A stretch of 21,540 nt of DNA from a virus. Below, piece by piece: positions 6,900 through 19,807 of the stretch. The stretch lies in IMG/VR virus record IMGVR_UViG_3300025141_000915, positions 1 to 21,540 of that record. One strand, 5' to 3'. Each line of letters opens with the position of its first letter. Within the stretch, counting starts at the first letter, position 1. The notes beneath the pieces were generated by a model, which was not told the origin of the DNA, made no database searches, and saw nothing but the letters and a program-made list of their open reading frames with translations. A program made the position numbers and the translations under genes.

Positions 6900-7286
6900 A
6901 TGGCACATTTTGCAAAATTAGGAATAGGAAGTAAAGTTACAGCTGTTCATGTTGTATCAAACGACATAGCAACAACCGAACAAGCTGGAATAGATTTTTT
7001 AAATACTTTATATAAAACAAGAGATGTTTGGGTTCAAACTTCTTATAATACAAAAGGCGGAGTTCATACGTTAGGAGGAACACCTTTTAGAAAAAATTAC
7101 GCTGGTAAAGGATATAAGTATGATTCAACCAGAGATGCTTTTATTTCACCAAAACCTTTTAAATCATGGACTTTAAATGAAGATACTTGTCGTTGGGAAG
7201 CACCAGTTGCTAAACCTGATGATGATAAAAGATATAGCTGGAATGAAGAAACGACTAGCTGGGATTTAAATGAAACAAATTCTTAA
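6900..7286 (+). CDS. Fibre-adjacent W-repeat protein (marine phage family)
   Basis: 128 residues. The first part (1-70) reads MAHFAKLG, HVVSNDIATTEQAGIDFL and GGTPFRKNYAGKGY, a layout I associate with a protein family very common beside fibre genes in marine phages. The second part holds three short units built on Y/W-x-Y/W-D/N-E-x-T-x-x-W/F: residues 72-81, 89-99 and 112-121. The last (RYSWNEETTSWDL) is almost identical to the C-terminus of the next gene product. It follows the fibre by 3 bases and overlaps the oxygenase gene by 17 bases. A fibre accessory or adhesin-domain role is inferred. No catalytic motif is visible. Confidence 0.75.
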   Translation: MAHFAKLGIGSKVTAVHVVSNDIATTEQAGIDFLNTLYKTRDVWVQTSYNTKGGVHTLGGTPFRKNYAGKGYKYDSTRDAFISPKPFKSWTLNEDTCRWEAPVAKPDDDKRYSWNEETTSWDLNETNS

Positions 7287-8028
7287 ATCTTTTAATAATT
7301 TCTTAGATTTTAAGTTAATTAATGAGATTGAGGTCTATGTAGATGCCTCCCTTAAGACTCAAGAGCCTAGATGGAAAACTAGTCTCCAATGGAAGCAGCA
7401 GATTCAACGTGCTACATCTCCAGTGCCTATTTTACCATTACCTGATAAGTTTACTGCTTCTATTCATCAAACACTTAAAGAAAAAGCAGGATTAACATGG
7501 GAAGAAGCTACCCCTCCCCAGCAATCACAATATTATTTATACCCACCAGGAGGCTATATTGGGTGGCATGATGATGCACACTACACATTTGCTTCTATAC
7601 TTTTTTTAAATCCTGTGTGGAATATAGATTGGGGAGGTATTTTTTTATATGAAGATTTGGAAGGTCTTGGACTACGTGGAGAAGTTCCTACATTTAATAA
7701 ATGTCTTGTAAATGCAGGGGGTGTTCCTCATGGTGTAAGCAGGCTTAGTCCTGATGCTCCTTGGAGGCGTGTTATAATAACTTTTGGACTTAAGACTTCT
7801 GAATCAAAATTAGTAAAAGACAAGGAGTATTCTCAACGAACATTAGCATGGCATCAAAAATATAATATAGGTGCTGAGTATGTAAAAAATCAAGCGTTGG
7901 TGAACTTATCTGTAGCGGCTGAAAGATATGCAAGAGAAAAAGTGCGAGAAGCATCAGTTGCTTATCCTGATGATGGAAAAGCATATAGATGGAACGAAGA
8001 AACAACAAGCTGGGATTTAGTAGAATAA
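7270..8028 (+). CDS. 2-oxoglutarate/Fe(II)-dependent oxygenase with C-terminal W-repeat
   Basis: 252 residues. The double-stranded beta-helix core shows the iron triad His100-x-Asp102 (GWHDDAHYTFASILFLNP) and His154 (NAGGVPHGVSRL), with Arg166/Arg167 (WRRVIITFGL) placed to bind 2-oxoglutarate. This is the HxD...H...R arrangement of prolyl-4-hydroxylase-like enzymes. After a helical linker (about 180-228) the protein ends with a W-repeat (Y239-R-W241-N-E-E-T-T-S-W248) nearly identical to that of the preceding gene. ATG lies inside the previous gene (17-base overlap), so the two are likely co-translated. The family hydroxylates proteins or small molecules. Modification of the fibre or W-repeat partner is an inference. 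Enzyme class is confident, substrate is unknown. Confidence 0.87.
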   Translation: MKQILKSFNNFLDFKLINEIEVYVDASLKTQEPRWKTSLQWKQQIQRATSPVPILPLPDKFTASIHQTLKEKAGLTWEEATPPQQSQYYLYPPGGYIGWHDDAHYTFASILFLNPVWNIDWGGIFLYEDLEGLGLRGEVPTFNKCLVNAGGVPHGVSRLSPDAPWRRVIITFGLKTSESKLVKDKEYSQRTLAWHQKYNIGAEYVKNQALVNLSVAAERYAREKVREASVAYPDDGKAYRWNEETTSWDLVE

Positions 8029-8129: not shown

Positions 8130-8419
8130 CAACAACTGATGAAACTGCTTTATTAACAGCAGCTTCTACTGAAACTATTATTATAAGATCCATTAGAGTT
8201 ACTAACAATACTGCTAATACCCCTACAGTATCTATGGATTTATCTGATAATTCAGCCAGCACAGAATATACAATATTGAAAACTCAAATACTTTCTGCTA
8301 ATACTGCAGTTGAGATTTTAACAGTCCCTTTAGTGCTAGAAGCATCGGACAGTTTAAAAGCTACAATGAGTTCTTCAGATTCAACACATATAGGAATAAG
8401 TTATTTAGTTATTACGTGA
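8093..8419 (+). CDS. Small beta-sandwich virion protein
   Basis: 108 residues, nearly all beta-prone (Thr, Ser, Val, Ile). The layout is ALATTDETALLTAASTETIIIRSIRVTNNT, then VSMDLSDNS, then VPLVLEASDSLKATMSSSDSTHIGISYLVIT. This pattern is typical of small phage structural proteins (decoration or spike-associated beta sandwiches) found in tail clusters, and it recalls the fragment at the left edge of the window in style. The stop TGA overlaps the next gene's GTG start. Exact location in the virion is not deducible. Confidence 0.7.
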   Translation: MANSYKFKGVALATTDETALLTAASTETIIIRSIRVTNNTANTPTVSMDLSDNSASTEYTILKTQILSANTAVEILTVPLVLEASDSLKATMSSSDSTHIGISYLVIT

Positions 8420-8856
8420 TCCAATTAATTAATATACCTGTAAAAAGTTTAGATCCTGCTTGGAGTATTGTTAGAACTGATATTGCCAATGCTTTAAACA
8501 GATCTAATGGATATGCTTTAGCAGAACATATAAAGAAATGGATTAAAGAAACAAAAATGCAGTTATGGATTCTTTGGGATTCAGAAGCTGATAAGGACTC
8601 CAAATACTATGGAGTAGTGGTAACAGAAATAATACAACGACCATTAAGAAGATGTTTGAATATCAAAATTATGACAGGAAAACATCGTGAAAAATGGCAA
8701 GGTTTAATTAAGCACATAGAAGATTTTGCATGGATAAACAAATGCGATTCAATAGAATTGATTGCAAGACCAGGATGGAAAAGAGTTATGAAACCATTCG
8801 GTTATAAAGAAAGCCATGTATTATTAGAAAAACAAAAGGAGAAAAAAGAAAAATGA
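8416..8856 (+). CDS. Possible GNAT-fold protein in the virion cluster
   Basis: 146 residues, GTG start at 8416 overlapping the previous TGA. The order of elements (helix-rich N-terminus; strands QLWILWDSEAD, YYGVVVTEII and CLNIKIMTGK; helix REKWQGLIKHIEDFAWINKC; strand SIELIARPGWKRVMKPFGYKES) resembles the GNAT acyltransferase fold. The ending PGW-R-x-x-x-x-FGY is the usual GNAT C-terminal pattern. The Q/R-x-x-G-x-G/A acetyl-CoA loop is not obvious (a MTGKHREKW segment sits there). It may be a catalytically inactive structural relative of the kind found beside internal virion proteins in T7-like phages. It ends in a charged tail (KEKKEK). Function is inferred and open. Confidence 0.6.
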   Translation: MIQLINIPVKSLDPAWSIVRTDIANALNRSNGYALAEHIKKWIKETKMQLWILWDSEADKDSKYYGVVVTEIIQRPLRRCLNIKIMTGKHREKWQGLIKHIEDFAWINKCDSIELIARPGWKRVMKPFGYKESHVLLEKQKEKKEK

Positions 8857-13009: not shown

Positions 13010-16000
13010 ATGGCTAATGATATCAATGTTAATGAATTCAAACTTAGAGATCCAGTTCGTTCAATACCTGATGGTTTAAAAGAACCAGTCAAGGATGCAA
13101 CGCCTGGATTTTTCCAGTCTCTAAGGAACCCCTATCATTTAATGTTAGAGGAATCCTTACCTGCATCTTTCTATCAATGGATAACAGGTAACACTAAAAA
13201 GAAACAAGCACAGGAAGCATTAGAATGGATAAGAAATAATCCAGATCAACAAGGATCTAAAATCTACCAGGAAGCTGAACGTAAATTAAAACGATTTGGT
13301 TATCTATTGGAAGAAGGCTCTCTATCAATAGACTTTAAGGAAATTGGTAATATGATTAAAGCCAATCCTAAGATGTTTGGTGCGGAATTAGTTAATATGT
13401 TAATGGCAGATCCATGGCTTATGGTTATGCCTCTTGGATGGCACAGGTTAGGTAGAGGTGTCGTTAATGCTATTAGATTAAAAAGAGCTAAGAATCTTAG
13501 TATGACTACAGTATCAGCAAAAAAAGCTGATAACATGGCTGATATAAAAGTTGGAGCCATAGCTACTCTTGGATTACCTTTTGTATTTTCAACTACATGG
13601 CAACTTGGAGAGGATAGAACATTAGATCCTAAAAGAGTTGGTATTGAAACTACATTAGGTGCAACAGCAGGAGCTTTAATATCTGTAGGTTTTGCAGGAA
13701 TGAGAGGAATAGCTCAAAGAATGACTGGACTTCATCCATCTAAAATTACAGAAATTCAAAGCAAAGTTTTAGCAAAACATGGAGCTGATCCTAAAAAATT
13801 AGCAAAATTATTAGATCCTAATGAGAATGGTATCTATCGTTCAGTAGATGATCTTGTTGAAGAAATCAAAGTACAATATAAAACTATATTAAATCCTGAT
13901 AAATTTGATGATATTAAAGCAGATATGACTGCAGCATTAAGAACTATCAATGAAAATGCTAAAGATATGTCTATTAATGCAGCACTTAAAACTGGTGGCT
14001 CTCTTGCTGCTATAGGTGCTACTGCACAATTCTTAACAGCAGAAGATGAAAAATTATTAGCAACAGCTAAAGGTGCGGGAGCTGGTGCAGCAGTATATTT
14101 GGCAGGTAGATTTCTTGTTAGTAGACTTAAGCAAATGCCTAAAGATTTCGATGCAGCTGCTATATCAGCAGAAGCAACATTAGATGCAGCTAAATTTAGT
14201 ACAGTTAAATTAAACTCTGCTGCATATGAATTAGCTAATAAAATTAAATTAATGATTCCTGATGCTATAGATGCAAGAAAATTATTATTTTATTATTTAA
14301 CTAGAGCTAAAGTAGATAGAAAAACATTTCAATACAATAGTAAATTAAAACCAATATCCATAAATGAATTAAAAAAAATAGATCCTAAATTACCAGAAGC
14401 TGCTGAAGCTATTAGAAAAGTTTTTGATAGTTTTGAATCAACTTTTGGTCAACATGCTAAAGATGGTGGTCAATTAATTTTTAATAAAAGAGCTAATTAT
14501 CTTCCTTTATTATGGGCACATTATAATCCTCAACTACAACCATTTAGATTTGTTAGAGATTTTGACAAAACTATAACTGGTCCATCAGGTAAATTTCAAT
14601 TTGCTAAACGTGGTGTATTTGGAGATATTAATGCAGGACTTCAAAAAGGATTTAAAATCAAGCTAGGGTTTGATGATCCTGTAGAATTAATTAAAATATA
14701 TGGTAACGCAGCGGGCAAAGCATTATCTACTAGATCTTTAATTAGAAGTTTAGAAACCTCAAAAATAGCAGGATCCCCCCTTCTTATTAGAAAAGGTCAA
14801 GCACCCATCAATCAAAACTATATACAATTTAAACATCCTTATTTTGAAGGTAAAGATGGATTTCCTTATATTCATAAGGGAATGGAAAAATCATTAAGAA
14901 TGGTTTTTGATGCTACTGATGAAGCTCCTTTTATGTCAGCACTCTTTACTACTAACTTAATGATGAAGAGATTAGCTGTAGGATTTTCATTCTTTCATGC
15001 AGGAGCACTTGTTGAAAGTATGTGGTTTGCTGGAGTTAAACCTAAATTTATTGGTAAAGTATTAAATCCAAGATCTAAAGCAGAATTAGAAAAACTAATT
15101 AGTGATCCTAAAACTTATAGTAAACAATTTCCTTCTACCTTACCTAAAGATTTTATTGGACCACCTCTTCCTAATGCAATAGAATTTTTAGAACAAAATG
15201 GTTTTAGAGATGTTATACAATTTGCTAGAGGAACAGGATTACAAATATCAACACCTGAAGATATAGGATTTGATAGATTTTATTATAACTTAAGAGGAAT
15301 TGATACTGCATTAAAAAGACACTTTGGTATTTCTACTGGTGGTAAAGCAGAAAAAGTATTTAGATGGTTTGATACTATCACTTGGGACAGAGTATTTACA
15401 CAAGCTAAACTACATACATTTTTATCAGTTTTAAATAAAAATACTATCTTAGGTAAACCTAATGCTATGAAGATTATGCCTGGTGATAGTCAGGCACGTA
15501 TTTATCAAAAAGCTACACAAGCATCACAATTTGCAAACGATGCATTTGGTGGACAAAACTGGGAACACATAGCGAACAGGATACAAACTCCTTGGCTTAA
15601 AAGTATAATGCAAACTACCTTTGCACCTGGCTCTAGAGGCTATATGCAATTGCTAATGTTTGCTCCAGACTGGACAATATCTAATATAAGAATTATTGCA
15701 AAATCATTACCTGCATTTGAATCTGATCCAGGTCTAAGAAGAATGTATCAGTTTTATTTTGCAAAGGCTGCATTAACATACGCAGCTGCAGGATCTGTTT
15801 TAAACTATATATTTAGTGGACACTCTATTTTAGAGAATACAGATCCAACTAGAATTGACTTAGGAGATGGTGAAGTACTTACTTTCTCTAAACAGTTAAT
15901 GGAACCTTTCCATTGGATAACAGCTCCACAGGCTACTGGTCTTAAAAAGATGGGATCATTACCCAGGGTAGTTATAGAAACATTAACAAACAAACAATAC

Positions 16001-16291
16001 CTAACTACTAAGTGGAGTCCAAACATCACTAAGAAAGATGATGAAGCTATTGAGAAGGGTTTAAAGATAGGTGGTCATGTTGGTAGGAGATTCTTACCTA
16101 TATGGTTACAAACAGCATCACAAAATGTTGCTGAAGGCTTAAAACGAGATGGGCTTAGTGCCGATCTTGCAGCCGATACAGCAGTAGATTTTGTACTAGG
16201 ACAACTTGGTCATCCTAGATATAAAGGACCAAGAACATCACAATATAAAATGAAAGGATTAGTAAGGTCTCCTTACGAAACATTATTTTAA
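13010..16291 (+). CDS. Large internal virion protein / DNA-ejection protein (1093 aa)
   Basis: The largest gene of the window. The N-terminus (about 30-110) is amphipathic and rich in aromatic residues (PGFFQSLRNPYHLMLEESL, FYQWITGN). Several hydrophobic or small-residue stretches follow: about 183-197 (TLGLPFVFSTTW), 214-230 (Ala/Gly-rich), 323-342, 353-372 (AKGAGAGAAVYLAGRFLVSR), 652-675 (AVGFSFFHAGALVESMWFAG) and 920-936 (ALTYAAAGSVLNYIF). Helical, polar sections separate them. Such a mix is expected for a large ejected protein that forms a trans-envelope channel, as with T7 gp16 or its pelagiphage counterparts. I see no clear transglycosylase catalytic motif in it. Its TAA overlaps the next ATG. 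Identification is from size, composition and position. Confidence 0.65.
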   Translation: MANDINVNEFKLRDPVRSIPDGLKEPVKDATPGFFQSLRNPYHLMLEESLPASFYQWITGNTKKKQAQEALEWIRNNPDQQGSKIYQEAERKLKRFGYLLEEGSLSIDFKEIGNMIKANPKMFGAELVNMLMADPWLMVMPLGWHRLGRGVVNAIRLKRAKNLSMTTVSAKKADNMADIKVGAIATLGLPFVFSTTWQLGEDRTLDPKRVGIETTLGATAGALISVGFAGMRGIAQRMTGLHPSKITEIQSKVLAKHGADPKKLAKLLDPNENGIYRSVDDLVEEIKVQYKTILNPDKFDDIKADMTAALRTINENAKDMSINAALKTGGSLAAIGATAQFLTAEDEKLLATAKGAGAGAAVYLAGRFLVSRLKQMPKDFDAAAISAEATLDAAKFSTVKLNSAAYELANKIKLMIPDAIDARKLLFYYLTRAKVDRKTFQYNSKLKPISINELKKIDPKLPEAAEAIRKVFDSFESTFGQHAKDGGQLIFNKRANYLPLLWAHYNPQLQPFRFVRDFDKTITGPSGKFQFAKRGVFGDINAGLQKGFKIKLGFDDPVELIKIYGNAAGKALSTRSLIRSLETSKIAGSPLLIRKGQAPINQNYIQFKHPYFEGKDGFPYIHKGMEKSLRMVFDATDEAPFMSALFTTNLMMKRLAVGFSFFHAGALVESMWFAGVKPKFIGKVLNPRSKAELEKLISDPKTYSKQFPSTLPKDFIGPPLPNAIEFLEQNGFRDVIQFARGTGLQISTPEDIGFDRFYYNLRGIDTALKRHFGISTGGKAEKVFRWFDTITWDRVFTQAKLHTFLSVLNKNTILGKPNAMKIMPGDSQARIYQKATQASQFANDAFGGQNWEHIANRIQTPWLKSIMQTTFAPGSRGYMQLLMFAPDWTISNIRIIAKSLPAFESDPGLRRMYQFYFAKAALTYAAAGSVLNYIFSGHSILENTDPTRIDLGDGEVLTFSKQLMEPFHWITAPQATGLKKMGSLPRVVIETLTNKQYLTTKWSPNITKKDDEAIEKGLKIGGHVGRRFLPIWLQTASQNVAEGLKRDGLSADLAADTAVDFVLGQLGHPRYKGPRTSQYKMKGLVRSPYETLF

Positions 16292-16485
16292 TGAGCAGAC
16301 ATACAGAAAATAAAGAAGAAATTCTTAAAATATATGGTGAATTAAAGGTTATTAATACTAAATTAGATAATCACGTTTGCCATTTAGCTAAACGAATTGA
16401 TACAATATATAAGATTATATGGGCTGTTAGTTTTATGGCGTTAGGAAACCTAATGTGGGTGGTTAAAAGCATATTAGTTTCATAA
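16291..16485 (+). CDS. Coil-TM small membrane protein (XhlA/holin-accessory-like)
   Basis: 64 residues. Residues 1-40 form a polar helix with heptad spacing (EEILKIYGELKVINTKLDNHVCHL), followed by one hydrophobic helix (IYKIIWAVSFMALGNLMWVV, about 41-60) and a short tail. This cytoplasmic coil followed by a single TM segment is the layout of haemolysin XhlA-type and related phage lysis accessory proteins. It starts and ends with TAATG overlaps and lies upstream of the lysozyme gene, which fits a lysis role. A general membrane anchor for virion assembly cannot be excluded. Confidence 0.55.
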   Translation: MSRHTENKEEILKIYGELKVINTKLDNHVCHLAKRIDTIYKIIWAVSFMALGNLMWVVKSILVS

Positions 16486-16703
16486 TGAAAATTATGCTAA
16501 CTATGCTTTTTTGTAGTGCGGTTCATAATCAATGTATGCAACCACACGTTATGCCTGAAACTTATTCTAGTTGGTATGCCTGTATGGTAGCTGGTTATGA
16601 TGAAGGAAAAAGAAAAACCATAGAAGTAGGAAAAGAACAGGTTAATAGAAATGGTGTTTATATAAAATTTTATTGCACACCTGATAAAAGACCTAGTACA
16701 TAA
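16485..16703 (+). CDS. Small exported-looking four-cysteine protein
   Basis: 72 residues. A short hydrophobic N-terminus (MKIMLTMLFCSAV) looks like a weak signal peptide. Four cysteines (10, 17, 33, 64) and the pattern SSWYACMVAGYDEGKRK, VNRNGVYIKFYC suggest a small compact extracytoplasmic domain held by disulphides. No canonical lipobox is evident around Cys10 or Cys17. The start codon overlaps the previous stop (TAATG). Similar small Y-x-C-M...GY...IYIKF-x-C proteins seem to recur in marine phages (recollection). Function is unknown. An envelope or lysis-related role is only suggested by the neighbouring genes. Confidence 0.6.
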   Translation: MKIMLTMLFCSAVHNQCMQPHVMPETYSSWYACMVAGYDEGKRKTIEVGKEQVNRNGVYIKFYCTPDKRPST

Positions 16704-16756
16704 AGTTGTACATCTACTACTAGATTTATACACGAAATAATTGTACAAGCAATAAT

Positions 16757-17470
16757 ATGCTTCGAAAATCAATACTTTGCATAAGCGATCTTCATGCACC
16801 CTATCATCATCCAGATACACTTGACTTTCTAGATGCAATTAGGAAAGAATATAAACCTGATTGTATTGTCAATATAGGAGATGAACTGGATTGGCATAGT
16901 ATTTCTTTTCACGATCATCATCCAGGCTTGTACTCTCCTAGCCATGAATTAGATAAAGCTAAAACATTCTTTAAGAAATTACATAAGATGTTTCCTAAAA
17001 TGTATTTGCTAGATTCTAACCATGGAAGTTTAGTTTTTAGGAAAGCAACACGACACGGAATTCCACACGAACTTTTCAAAACTTATAATGAAATGTTAGG
17101 TGTGGGACCAGGCTGGACCTGGCACGAAGATTTGATTATCAAAGCATCTAATGGTCAAAACATTTACTTCTGCCATGGTAAATATAAAGATGTGCTTAAA
17201 GTAGCACAACAGTATGGGATGTGTACCTGTCAGGGACACTATCATACTTCATATAGTATCCAGTATTGGAGCAACCCTAATGAATTATTATGGGCTTGCC
17301 AGACTGGTTGTTTAATCAACATGAAGAGTTTAGCTTTTGAGTATAACAAACTTCAAAAGACTAGACCTGTAATAGGAACCGCTGTGATCATCAATGGACT
17401 ACCAAAGTTGATCCCAATGGTATTAAAACATAATGGCAGATGGAACAGAAAAATTACCGAGAGGAATTAG
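16757..17470 (+). CDS. Calcineurin-like metallophosphoesterase
   Basis: 237 residues with the ordered metal-binding motifs of the family: SDLH (10-13), GDELD (41-45), SNHG (87-90, replacing the usual GNHD/E), a histidine in FCHGK (138-142) and GHYHT (160-164). These residues would bind two metal ions and hydrolyse a phosphomonoester or phosphodiester. Phages often carry such stand-alone enzymes and their substrates are mostly unknown. The reading frame is intact and the 3' end overlaps the lysozyme gene by 38 bases, so both are translated from one message. It lies two to three genes upstream of the SLOG/NADAR pair, so a nucleotide-derived substrate is possible but unproven. Confidence 0.88.
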   Translation: MLRKSILCISDLHAPYHHPDTLDFLDAIRKEYKPDCIVNIGDELDWHSISFHDHHPGLYSPSHELDKAKTFFKKLHKMFPKMYLLDSNHGSLVFRKATRHGIPHELFKTYNEMLGVGPGWTWHEDLIIKASNGQNIYFCHGKYKDVLKVAQQYGMCTCQGHYHTSYSIQYWSNPNELLWACQTGCLINMKSLAFEYNKLQKTRPVIGTAVIINGLPKLIPMVLKHNGRWNRKITERN

Positions 17471-17879
17471 AAACAAGAATCCAGGCAATATCAAATTAGG
17501 TACTGACTGGGATGGGCTGGCATCAGAGCAATCTGATCCAGTCTTTTGTGTTTTTAAGGAATCCGTTTGGGGTATACGGGCTTTAATGCGTATACTCTTA
17601 GTCTATCGTTTTCACCACAAAAAGAACACAACTGAGGATATCATCGCAAGATGGGCACCTCCAAGTGAGAATGATACTGACGCTTATATTAAATTTGTTT
17701 GTAAAGAAACAGGTTTTAATCCAATGGACAAACTAGAAAATAGTATGAAAGATTACTTACCTCTGGTAAAGTCCATAATCAGAATGGAAAATGGTCAACA
17801 GCCATTTACCGATGAACTTTTAGTAGAAGGGATGTATAGAGCATGGGATGGTTACGAGACAAATTCCTCGGCTTCATAG
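17433..17879 (+). CDS. Endolysin-type peptidoglycan hydrolase (GIRNxNPGNI lysozyme-like)
   Basis: 148 residues. The N-terminal signature RGIRNKNPGNIKLG (10-23) with Trp26, then FKESVWGIRALMRILLVYRF, and TEDIIARWAPPSENDTDAYIKFV define the small lysozyme-like family found in phage endolysins and virion-associated muralytic proteins. RWAPP-END and the regular helices are well preserved, so it should be active on the glycan strand. The exact catalytic residue is not certain from sequence. No signal peptide is present, so release should depend on a holin, and a holin candidate lies four genes downstream. The start overlaps the phosphoesterase gene by 38 bases. The 50-residue ORF starts inside its 3' end. 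Confidence 0.82.
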   Translation: MADGTEKLPRGIRNKNPGNIKLGTDWDGLASEQSDPVFCVFKESVWGIRALMRILLVYRFHHKKNTTEDIIARWAPPSENDTDAYIKFVCKETGFNPMDKLENSMKDYLPLVKSIIRMENGQQPFTDELLVEGMYRAWDGYETNSSAS

Positions 17880-17995
17880 AAAGCATGGGAAGTAAATTGA
17901 ATAGCTGGGCTTGGGACAAACGATGGAAGAAGAGAGATCATCTTCGTTATGTTGGTACAAGAACAGGTAAAGTATATACATTTAAAAAGAAATGA
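17843..17995 (+). CDS. 50-residue basic Trp-rich protein
   Basis: ATG at 17843 lies inside the lysozyme 3' end. The frame stops at TGA 17993-17995, overlapping the SLOG gene ATG (ATGA). The product (MGWLRDKFLGFIESMGSKLN..., ending RTGKVYTFKKK) has an amphipathic N-terminal helix with Trp and Phe, then a W-x-W-D-K-R-W-K-K-R basic stretch. An amphipathic, basic, Trp-rich small protein could lie on the membrane surface and assist lysis. Coding is supported by the coupling at its end and by filling the gap between lysozyme and SLOG genes. Function is unknown. Confidence 0.55.
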   Translation: MGWLRDKFLGFIESMGSKLNSWAWDKRWKKRDHLRYVGTRTGKVYTFKKK

Positions 17996-18480
17996 AACTT
18001 GGTGTAGTAGGATCTAGATTAAAATTTTGGAAAAACCCTAGTGGTGCAAAAGAATTTGTCTTTAAAAAATTAGATACAATCCACACTAAAACTCCAATTT
18101 CAAAAGTAGTTTCAGGTGAAGAAGTAACTGGAGCTGATCGTTTTGGAAAAGAATGGGCATTATCTAGATTAGGAACAAAAGGTTATGAACCACATCCACC
18201 TGATTTAGAATTAGCAGCAAAATATGGTTATGATAAGTTTAATCGTTATAGTCCACAGAGTAGAAAGGCTTATGGAGTAGCTGCTTATACAAGAAATAAA
18301 ACTATTATAGATAATTCAGATAAAGTAGTAGCTTTTTGGGATGGTAAAAGTAGAGGTACAGCAAATTCTATACAATACTCTATACAAAGAGGAATACCTG
18401 GACAAATAATTGCACAGCCAGGTGCTAGTTCATCTCTTATTAAATCTTCCTTAGAAAAAATTAAAAAAGGAGAATGGTAA
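17992..18480 (+). CDS. SLOG-superfamily (YspA/YAcAr-like) nucleotide-binding protein
   Basis: 162 residues with the Rossmann-like SLOG pattern: a first strand and loop VVGSR (5-9), a second strand VVSGEEVTGADRFGKEWA (39-56), the helix RNKTIIDNSDKVVAFWDG (101-118) and the nucleotide-binding turn SRGTANSI (120-127). SGxxxGAD and the DGKSRGT turn are the diagnostic elements of the YspA-type subgroup. SLOG proteins bind nucleotides, NAD derivatives or ADP-ribose-like ligands, and several act in conflict or signalling systems. It overlaps the ORF before it (ATGA) and the NADAR gene after it (TAATG). The fold assignment is strong. The ligand is inferred. Confidence 0.82.
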   Translation: MKLGVVGSRLKFWKNPSGAKEFVFKKLDTIHTKTPISKVVSGEEVTGADRFGKEWALSRLGTKGYEPHPPDLELAAKYGYDKFNRYSPQSRKAYGVAAYTRNKTIIDNSDKVVAFWDGKSRGTANSIQYSIQRGIPGQIIAQPGASSSLIKSSLEKIKKGEW

Positions 18481-18872
18481 TGAAACTTAATGTTTTCTAT
18501 GGAGCTAGACAATATGCTAATCTAAGCAATCTAGCTAAAAGACCTTTTTCTTTAAATATTAAAGGTAAGAAATTAGACTTTGTTTCTGTAGAACATGGTT
18601 ATCAAACATTAAAAAATAAAACAATTAATGAAGGTATATATAAGAAACCCTGGAAAGAAGGTTCTAAATTTACAGCTCCAGGTACTTATACCAAAGATAA
18701 TTGGAATATTAATTTAATGAGAAGTCTTATGAGAAGATCTTTTGAACAGAATCCTACAGCTCTTGCTGCATTAAAAGCAACTGGCAAAGCTGAATTTTCT
18801 CATGTACAGGACAGAGGAATTTGGAAAACTAAATTTCCTGAATTACTAAAACACGTAAGGAGTAAATTATAA
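18480..18872 (+). CDS. NADAR-domain (YbiA-like) protein
   Basis: 130 residues from ATG 18480. I prefer this start over 18474 because it gives AAAGGAG correct spacing and a TAATG overlap with the SLOG stop. The NADAR signature is clear: VFYGARQYANLSNLAKRPF (5-23), SVEHGYQTLK (36-45, with Glu38 at the position of the catalytic Glu of YbiA-type N-glycosidases) and HVQDRGIWKTKFPELLKHVRSKL (108-130). The last block is a phage-type variant lacking the usual WG-x-G segment. NADAR proteins act on N-glycosidic bonds of riboflavin intermediates, and some remove ADP-ribose from guanine in DNA. Role here is inferred. Confidence 0.82.
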   Translation: MKLNVFYGARQYANLSNLAKRPFSLNIKGKKLDFVSVEHGYQTLKNKTINEGIYKKPWKEGSKFTAPGTYTKDNWNINLMRSLMRRSFEQNPTALAALKATGKAEFSHVQDRGIWKTKFPELLKHVRSKL

Positions 18873-19261
18873 TGGCATTACCAATAATTAATTTATTGAG
18901 TATGGCTTTTAAAGTTGGTACTCATATATATAAAAACAAACAACAAACAAAAATGCTAATGTCTGATGCACAACGTGTGCACGCAGAAAAAATGAGCCGA
19001 GGCGAAATTGAATTTAAAAGCAAAATTATTGAAACTAATGAGAAGGGCTGGAAAGACGAATTTGTCCTCCTTCTTGTATCTTTGCCTATCTTGCTATTGG
19101 CTTATTCTGTGTTCTCTGACTCTCCTGATGTTCGTGAACGATTAGATCTATTTTTTTCATATTTTAATAATCTCCCTTATTGGTATCAAGCAATCTTCAT
19201 AGGAGTTGTTTCAGCTATCTATGGATTGAAGGGTGCTAATATCATGAAGAAGCCTAAGTAA
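18872..19261 (+). CDS. Holin-like membrane protein (GTA 3TM-holin type)
   Basis: 129 residues. After an amphipathic N-terminal helix (ALPIINLLSMAFKVGTHIY) and a charged helical segment (about 22-50), KGWKDEFVLLLVSLPILLLAYSVF provides a TM helix (about 52-72). LPYWYQAIFIGVVSAIYGLKGA (about 100-121) provides a second. The K-G-W-K-D-E-F then P then LPxWY...G-x-x-G layout matches the holin family of gene transfer agents and marine phages. It would make the inner-membrane lesion that releases the lysozyme encoded four genes upstream. Start overlaps the NADAR stop (TAATG). Family call by pattern. Confidence 0.7.
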   Translation: MALPIINLLSMAFKVGTHIYKNKQQTKMLMSDAQRVHAEKMSRGEIEFKSKIIETNEKGWKDEFVLLLVSLPILLLAYSVFSDSPDVRERLDLFFSYFNNLPYWYQAIFIGVVSAIYGLKGANIMKKPK

Positions 19262-19264
19262 TGC

Positions 19265-19474
19265 ATGCTCAAAGCAGATTACCAAGAAATTATCAACGAG
19301 TATAAAGAACAAGTTAGGAACTTGAGAACTCAGATTTCAGAACTCGAAGATGCAGGCAAATCAAAAGATGCTGCACTTAAACGAGCTTTGCAAAAATTAG
19401 AACATACAACTGATGATTTAGATAAAGCTACTGAAGAAATAGATGCAAAAGAAAAAGTGGGTAAAAACAAATAG
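19265..19474 (+). CDS. Small coiled-coil protein
   Basis: 69 residues, almost entirely charged helix with heptad pattern (EIINEYKEQVRNLRTQISELEDA, LKRALQKLEHTTDDLDKATEEIDAKEK). No membrane segment or signal is seen. An earlier ATG at 19261 is out of frame and closes quickly, so the start at 19265 is used. It likely forms a dimer. Position after the holin suggests a lysis accessory or regulatory partner, but composition alone cannot tell. Its 3' end overlaps the following zinc-ribbon ORF by 32 bases. Confidence 0.6.
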   Translation: MLKADYQEIINEYKEQVRNLRTQISELEDAGKSKDAALKRALQKLEHTTDDLDKATEEIDAKEKVGKNK

Positions 19475-19616
19475 AGAATTTAATGTTGGACCATGTAAAT
19501 GGTGTAACAAAGAATTAGTTAATACAGATTCATACGTCTACTTTGCATCAAAGGAAAGAGCTTGTTTAAAATGTTATCACAATTCAGGAGCATCATTAAA
19601 GATGTTTAATAAATGA
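19443..19616 (+). CDS. 57-residue zinc-ribbon-like protein
   Basis: ATG at 19443 lies within the coiled-coil gene. The frame stops at TGA 19614-19616, overlapping the next ATG (ATGA). The sequence has two CxxC knuckles, Cys18/Cys21 (GPCKWCNKEL) and Cys41/Cys44 (ACLKCYHNSG), about 20 residues apart, which is the spacing of a small zinc ribbon. The N-terminus is basic (MQKKKWVKTNRE). Such proteins bind DNA, RNA or protein. It may regulate late expression or act on the host. The coupled 3' overlap supports coding. No named family is recognised. Confidence 0.6.
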   Translation: MQKKKWVKTNREFNVGPCKWCNKELVNTDSYVYFASKERACLKCYHNSGASLKMFNK

Positions 19617-19807
19617 CAAGGAAAACTAATACAGTTTTAATTGGACTGTTAGGAACTATTTTAATGGGTTTGAGTACATGGGTATTAATTACTTTAATTG
19701 AAATACAAACAATAGTAAGTATGATGCAGAACGAACTAATGAATATAGATAAACAATTTGGTCGTGTTTATAACTTCATAGATAGTGTAAGGAATCAAGT
19801 GAAATGA
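19613..19807 (+). CDS. N-terminal TM plus coiled-coil small protein (spanin- or antiholin-like)
   Basis: 64 residues. Residues 1-7 are basic and polar, residues 8-28 form one hydrophobic helix (VLIGLLGTILMGLSTWVLITL), and residues 29-64 are a polar helix with heptad hydrophobics (EIQTIVSMMQNELMNIDKQFGRVYNFIDSV). The topology (membrane helix first, then periplasmic coil) is that of a short i-spanin or an antiholin, though it is shorter than a typical i-spanin. It mirrors the coil-then-TM protein at 16291-16485. The start overlaps the zinc-ribbon stop. Confidence 0.55.
   Translation: MTRKTNTVLIGLLGTILMGLSTWVLITLIEIQTIVSMMQNELMNIDKQFGRVYNFIDSVRNQVK

Follow-up and report, generated by a model that had tools for sequence, protein, structure and literature searches.

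Apparently exchangeable SLOG and NADAR cargo genes beside the lysis genes of a probable SAR11 phage

Genes of the SLOG, Macro and NADAR families combine in viral neighborhoods, for which the relevant passages of PMC9503650 propose a role in countering host ADP-ribose signals; the proposal of a counter-defense function for phage SLOG/NADAR neighborhoods is, in those passages, already in print. For jumbo-phage fusions of YAcAr-type SLOG and NADAR domains, the corresponding passages of PMC7824862 propose toggles. A NADAR of an E. coli phage (gp30.3) is described in part of PMC11125620 as removing ADP-ribose from guanosine in vitro, with no rescue from DarT1, and NADARs of the YbiA kind act, according to passages of the same paper and of PMC9503650, on riboflavin intermediates, with roles in RNA repair also proposed. 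The terms Pelagi-, SAR11 and HTVC are absent from the main text of PMC9503650, the main text of a pelagiphage paper (PMC9599517) contains none of the terms sought, and no open-access paper among the matches listed treats pelagiphages together with NADAR or SLOG.

The DNA analyzed here, a single virus record 21,540 bases long (hereafter the window; all positions are numbered along it), carries a SLOG and a NADAR gene side by side. A preliminary description had read them as a translationally coupled pair, possibly serving as counter-defense against DarT-like or TIR systems.

Layout of the locus

The two genes and their immediate surroundings comprise the following features:

17433..17879, plus strand: endolysin-like gene (phrog_873 endolysin, E = 6.2e-49), the upstream anchor of the slot
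17843..17995, plus strand: 50-aa ORF, immediately 5' of the cargo genes
17991..18000, plus strand: 10-bp direct repeat AATGAAACTT, copy 1, at the SLOG start
17992..18480, plus strand: SLOG-domain protein of YAcAr/YspA type, 162 aa (PF10686, AlphaFold model)
18479..18488, plus strand: 10-bp direct repeat AATGAAACTT, copy 2, at the NADAR start
18480..18872, plus strand: predicted NADAR-fold protein of the phage gp30.3 (His) class, 130 aa (fold and invariant residues)
18872..19261, plus strand: phrog_2524 gene (E = 1e-30), the downstream anchor of the slot

The SLOG ORF runs from an ATG at 17992 to a TAA at 18478-18480 and forms an ATGA overlap with the preceding 50-aa ORF, a counterpart of which is found in some relatives both with and without cargo. 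The NADAR ORF extends from an ATG at 18480 to a TAA at 18870-18872. An alternative in-frame ATG at 18474 lies 1 nt past a GGAG (18469-18472) and that at 18480 lies 7 nt past it, so that the latter is the likelier start. The SLOG/NADAR junction reads TAATG, as does the one between NADAR and the next gene. The coordinates, the one-base overlap and the motifs quoted in the preliminary description were all found as claimed. However, overlaps of 1 or 4 bases occur at 14 of the 29 consecutive plus-strand junctions in our hand-made list of window genes, and translational coupling was rejected as special evidence for a pair, short overlaps being generic in this operon. The same description had placed the genes between a lysozyme and a holin. 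Upstream lies the endolysin-like gene; the holin is unproven, the downstream gene belonging to a family of unknown function (phrog_2524) and encoding what is by eye a small membrane protein and a possible holin.

The GC3 values of SLOG (0.09) and NADAR (0.15) are well below those of the flanking late genes (0.29-0.35) and similar to those of the structural genes (0.10-0.22). Elsewhere in the window, a 2OG-Fe(II) oxygenase-like protein is encoded among the tail genes (7270-8025; PF13640, E = 2.6e-4, below cutoff), and 8416-8853 possibly encodes a small acetyltransferase-like protein (weak matches to phrog_7642, E = 2.2e-5, and phrog_1249, 0.025). PADLOC gave no match on the window.

Families, folds and predicted active site

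The product of 17992-18480 scores 28.8 bits against the Pfam YAcAr family PF10686, narrowly over the cutoff of 28.2, and the same family is matched by all ten members of our SLOG alignment, the window protein included (A5; E ≤ 1e-3; built from 12 SLOG loci, with L006, L203 and L204 left out). Its AlphaFold model (mean pLDDT 90.1) fits SLOG-type folds about equally well at Z scores of 8-12 overall, among them a MoCo carrier (11.9), YpsA (11.2), DprA (10.7), ShosA (10.4), ThsA (10.1) and LOG (10.0). Profile match and model, structure prediction being a check that the preliminary description had asked for, both support its assignment of a SLOG protein, here of YAcAr type. This fold does not single out a ligand, ThsA-type cADPR included, the Z score of ThsA being tied with those of DprA, YpsA, LOG and the MoCo carrier.

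Part of this evidence would also suit a DprA-like accessory protein in nucleic-acid binding or recombination, with no functional link to NADAR and adjacent to it as a by-product of a gain-prone slot. All matches of the SLOG profile to the PDB at E ≤ 0.001 are DprA proteins (best 6.8e-6), DprA is the top row of the Foldseek search of the model against the PDB (E = 1.3e-3, with no row at E ≤ 0.001), and half of the A5 proteins (5/10) also have a match to the Pfam family of DprA. Yet YAcAr is matched by all ten, the MoCo-carrier, YpsA, ThsA and LOG folds fit about equally well, and DprA proteins are larger and multi-domain, which we count against a DprA-like identity. Weighed together with the gene arrangements given below, which bear on it in both directions, a DprA-like SLOG seems to us unlikely, if well short of negligible.

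The Pfam score of the product of 18480-18872 is below cutoff (PF08719, E = 3e-4, 21.5 bits against 35.1), and two relatives score 50.3 (L003) and 20.8 bits (L170). Across the NADAR family, 24 of 27 members match PF08719 and 13 of 27 match Phage_30_3 (E ≤ 1e-3), and the family profile matches YbiA in the PDB at 6.9e-13; phmmer searches of the PDB with the single window NADAR or SLOG protein gave nothing useful, whereas the profile searches did match. The AlphaFold model (mean pLDDT 90.0) aligns to three solved NADARs, with Z scores of 13.6 (8bau, ADP-ribose-bound), 12.8 (2b3w, YbiA) and 8.3 (8bat), and the first unrelated row after these is at Z 2.0. Because of this alignment we retain the original NADAR assignment despite the Pfam score, and the predicted fold is clear.

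Every one of the 27 rows of the NADAR alignment (A4) has Glu38, Lys45 and His108, and the conservation of Glu38, on which the preliminary description had staked part of its case, is thereby borne out. A4 was built from 37 NADAR loci, 11 of them left out either as near-duplicates (L002, L004, L005, L177, L184 and L192) or as weak, partial or interrupted (L194, L195, L197, L198 and L199); by eye, Glu and Lys are present in 10/10 of these rows that cover them and His in 11/11, and three of the 11 contain in-frame stops. The spacing of seven residues between E38 and K45 is that of E43/K50 and E88/K95 in the passages of PMC11543638 concerned. In the phage NADAR (gp30.3) class, as described in part of PMC11125620, a His replaces the Glu/Asp of the last strand. 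In our model His108 directly follows strand 105-107, with a gap at the site that makes the register relative to YbiA uncertain by about one residue. By its sequence, the window protein falls into this published class, with E38, K45 and H108 as the predicted active site. NADAR proteins 98% (L001) and 46-48% (L091, L171) identical to that of the window lie in the same slot, a recurrence beyond chance.

Slot content and gene exchange

The slot between the endolysin and phrog_2524 genes was surveyed in 241 loci with a phrog_2524 match (best 80 per search, a sample leaning to relatives of the queries). An upstream endolysin match was present in 87, which after removal of five same-contig repeats gave 82 contigs, the window itself (L168) among them. 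Single linkage at an anchor identity of at least 95% grouped these into 22 lineages; the contigs are not all independent, since in several groups the DNA from endolysin to phrog_2524 is identical. L171, L007 and L298, at contig ends, stand outside the count, and L092 was scored as carrying neither gene, its SLOG lying further downstream. Neither gene is found in 77 of the 82 slots, NADAR alone in two (L001, L091), SLOG alone in one (L156) and both in two, namely the window and a twin 99.99% identical to it over the 8.5 kb compared. The anchors are separated by ≤134 bases in 72/82 contigs, and longer gaps with neither gene occur in L228, L092, L163, L012 and L015. With most slots devoid of both genes and the rest variably filled, the term cargo locus used in the preliminary description is apt. 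Other slot contents include a 45-aa ORF in L012 (1974-2111), similar to one in L007, and about 1.7 kb of small ORFs in L015 (4247-5995).

Cargo differs between members in 3 of the 22 lineages, and closely related contigs that differ in the presence of a gene are the window and L001, L156 and L158, and L091 as against L093-L095 and L103. L001 is 96.5-100% identical to window positions 16291-19659 in every 200-base tile and is devoid of one 488-base stretch (17991-18478) corresponding to the SLOG gene, between the 10-bp repeats; this indel may be either a loss on the L001 side or a gain on that of the window. Further upstream, window 13443-18000 aligns to L001 1-4525, a region including a 1093-aa protein, at 82% average identity, and from 16291 on identity is 96.5-100% per tile; this difference before and after 16291 suggests recombination near that position.

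Gain and loss within lineages, a SLOG or NADAR gene in just 5 of the 82 contigs, and only four synonymous and three non-synonymous codon differences between the NADAR genes of the window and L001, too few to show selection, are what neutral or transient passengers with no selected function might leave behind. However, reading frames stay open and active-site residues unchanged among sequences 34-48% identical to the window's, and both families recur in one slot; neutral carriage therefore strikes us as very unlikely.

Further clues come from L171, a contig end in which the order is NADAR, SLOG, phrog_2524, the reverse of the window's. The NADAR of this contig shares 78% identity with the L091 protein and the SLOG 88% with the L092 protein, whereas the phrog_2524 protein shares 46% with those of L091 and L092 and 70% with the window's; toward the window, the NADAR and SLOG identities are 48% and 37%. 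Since the identities of the L171 cargo far exceed that of its phrog_2524 to L091 and L092, cargo moves between phage backbones, and the L171 pair was assembled from gene versions other than the window's. This second, differently built pairing speaks against a DprA-like SLOG unconnected with NADAR. In favor of that explanation, SLOG occurs in the slot without NADAR in L156 and in L007, where SLOG and a 45-aa ORF lie between an apparent tail of the 50-aa ORF and phrog_2524, and further downstream in L092 and in L298, the frame of the latter being interrupted as read.

Because each gene is found in the slot without the other (NADAR in L001 and L091, SLOG in L156 and L007), we reject an obligate SLOG-NADAR pair, and the coupled-pair reading of the preliminary description holds only in part. 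Recurrence of the pair in phages, also raised there, holds weakly, in one other contig (L171) and with the order reversed. Co-occurrence in the slot does not reach significance in a Fisher test (p = 0.23; p = 0.09 with inclusion of L171 and L007, two contigs that came from cargo searches), and we make no statistical claim for it. The gene arrangements argue instead that SLOG and NADAR are separate, exchangeable cargo that have met at least twice. The existence of two arrangements would also suit a phage toggle such as that proposed for the jumbo-phage fusions, SLOG making an NAD-derived signal and NADAR removing it, as a means of controlling the host or of keeping other phages out. Such a device is in our view highly improbable, given that each gene stands in the slot also without the other and that the NAD-consuming activity is hypothetical.

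In the DNA fetched around the 37 NADAR loci, a SLOG match is present at two (the twin and L171). Outside this phage group, SLOG was found beside NADAR at none of 33 loci in the fetched DNA, another point for the DprA-like alternative. At 29 of these 33, NADAR is part of a large ORF (roughly 1,600 to 3,500 aa), in many cases one that reads to an end of the fetched stretch; in three such ORFs, Pfam matched only NADAR, a 2OG-oxygenase domain or, weakly, Phage_30_3. One giant protein (L191) combines a 2OG-Fe(II) oxygenase domain with a gp30.3-type NADAR region. We infer that these large ORFs are of the polyvalent kind, multi-domain phage proteins that parts of PMC9503650 and PMC7824862 describe as injected. 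None of the 28 phage records that match phrog_2524 was hit when the NADAR of the window (E ≤ 0.01) or of L171 (E ≤ 0.1) served as tblastn query; SLOG tblastn searches against named phage records covered the best 40 of 139 and the best 30 of 245 matching records.

Probable host, role and comparison with known systems

Matches to phrog_2524 are found in 28 phage records, 26 of them of Pelagibacter phages. Pelagiphages lead among the matches listed for the phosphoesterase encoded upstream, a Methylophilales phage being equally close, and GTDB contigs with phrog_2524 relatives are labeled Pelagibacteraceae in 4 of 11 cases, the other seven bearing mixed labels and being mostly MAGs. As these relatives point to Pelagibacter and Pelagibacteraceae, the host of the window phage is likely SAR11.

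We searched 147 genomes, some of them incomplete, of the presumed host family (that of L286, a Pelagibacteraceae single cell) at E ≤ 0.001. DarT, TIR_2 and SIR2_2 were each found in 0/147, NADAR likewise in 0/147 and YAcAr in 1/147. RecA, over cutoff in 122/147, served as positive control, because DprA (PF02481), nearly absent from this sample (2/147), is a poor one. The three null counts lower the probability of such targets without excluding them, some genomes being incomplete and defense genes patchy, and no concrete target emerges from these counts. Counter-defense as put forward in the preliminary description remains plausible, but its named DarT and TIR targets are weakened, for DarT also by the lack of DarT1 rescue with gp30.3 cited above. 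Streamlined genomes are said in part of PMC12143481 to hold fewer defense systems.

A NADAR serving metabolism, as a housekeeping helper acting on by-products of RNA or DNA repair or on riboflavin intermediates, would accord with the YbiA-kind activities cited at the outset and with the absence of NADAR from the 147 genomes. The His-class site, the within-lineage gain and loss and the absence from most slots look more like optional conflict genes, and we consider a metabolic role quite improbable, although together with a DprA-like SLOG it is the chief competitor of the reading given next.

We put forward, at slightly less than an even chance, that SLOG and NADAR are optional, independently acting counter-ADP-ribose cargo: two separate accessory genes of moron type, housed in a slot of variable content among the lysis genes of a SAR11-type phage. 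NADAR would be a phage-class (His) N-glycosidase that uses Glu38, Lys45 and His108 to remove ADP-ribose, or a ribosyl group resembling it, from a base or from some small molecule. SLOG would be a YAcAr-type Rossmann protein binding, or less probably cleaving, a nucleotide or an ADP-ribose derivative. Each gene alone would benefit the phage, probably by blunting a host response based on NAD or ADP-ribose, and carriage of both might add effects on different bonds or ligands. From their late position, the genes seem poorly placed to block a response that comes early, unless their products travel in the virion. A bolder proposal, which we regard as improbable, is that the slot is a counter-defense exchange site of SAR11 phages, where SLOG and NADAR are time and again gained, lost and brought together under selection by an undescribed NAD/ADP-ribose antiviral system that belongs to the SAR11 hosts or to competing phages. 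The genomes of SAR11 bacteria are streamlined; should their phages keep exchanging ADP-ribose-related genes, this would point to an unrecognized NAD-based conflict in these very abundant bacteria of the ocean. In this context, the closely related contigs that differ in cargo offer a natural comparison for the effect of each gene.

The locus shares features with several known systems. With the YAcAr (YspA/cpYpsA-related) SLOG proteins of PF10686, the window SLOG has in common the profile match over cutoff and a SLOG-type fold; its motif is SGEEVTGAD, against SGGAxGAD in most relatives, and the region from about residue 69 to about residue 90 contains an insertion. The SLOG fold is also shared with the SIR2-SLOG protein ThsA of Thoeris (Z of 10.1 to 6lhx, tied with others), from which the window protein, with 162 aa, differs in having neither a SIR2 domain match nor a match in PADLOC. 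With DarTG1 toxin-antitoxin NADARs, the window NADAR shares the fold, Glu and Lys, but has His108 instead of the catalytic Asp171 (D171), and a Pfam scan of 15 proteins of the window, itself less than a complete genome, matched no DarT partner gene. The phage NADAR/T4 gp30.3 class (PF08010, PF08719) has in common with it the predicted NADAR fold, the active-site Glu and Lys and the last-strand His; unlike that class, the window NADAR is a stand-alone protein of 130 aa encoded beside lysis genes, probably in a small SAR11 phage. Finally, the viral SLOG/Macro/NADAR neighborhoods described in the relevant passages of PMC9503650 resemble the present locus in the adjacency of SLOG and NADAR in a tailed phage and in the counter-defense proposal. 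In contrast to those, SLOG and NADAR occur here in both gene orders, each is also found without the other, and close relatives differ by the indel of a single gene.
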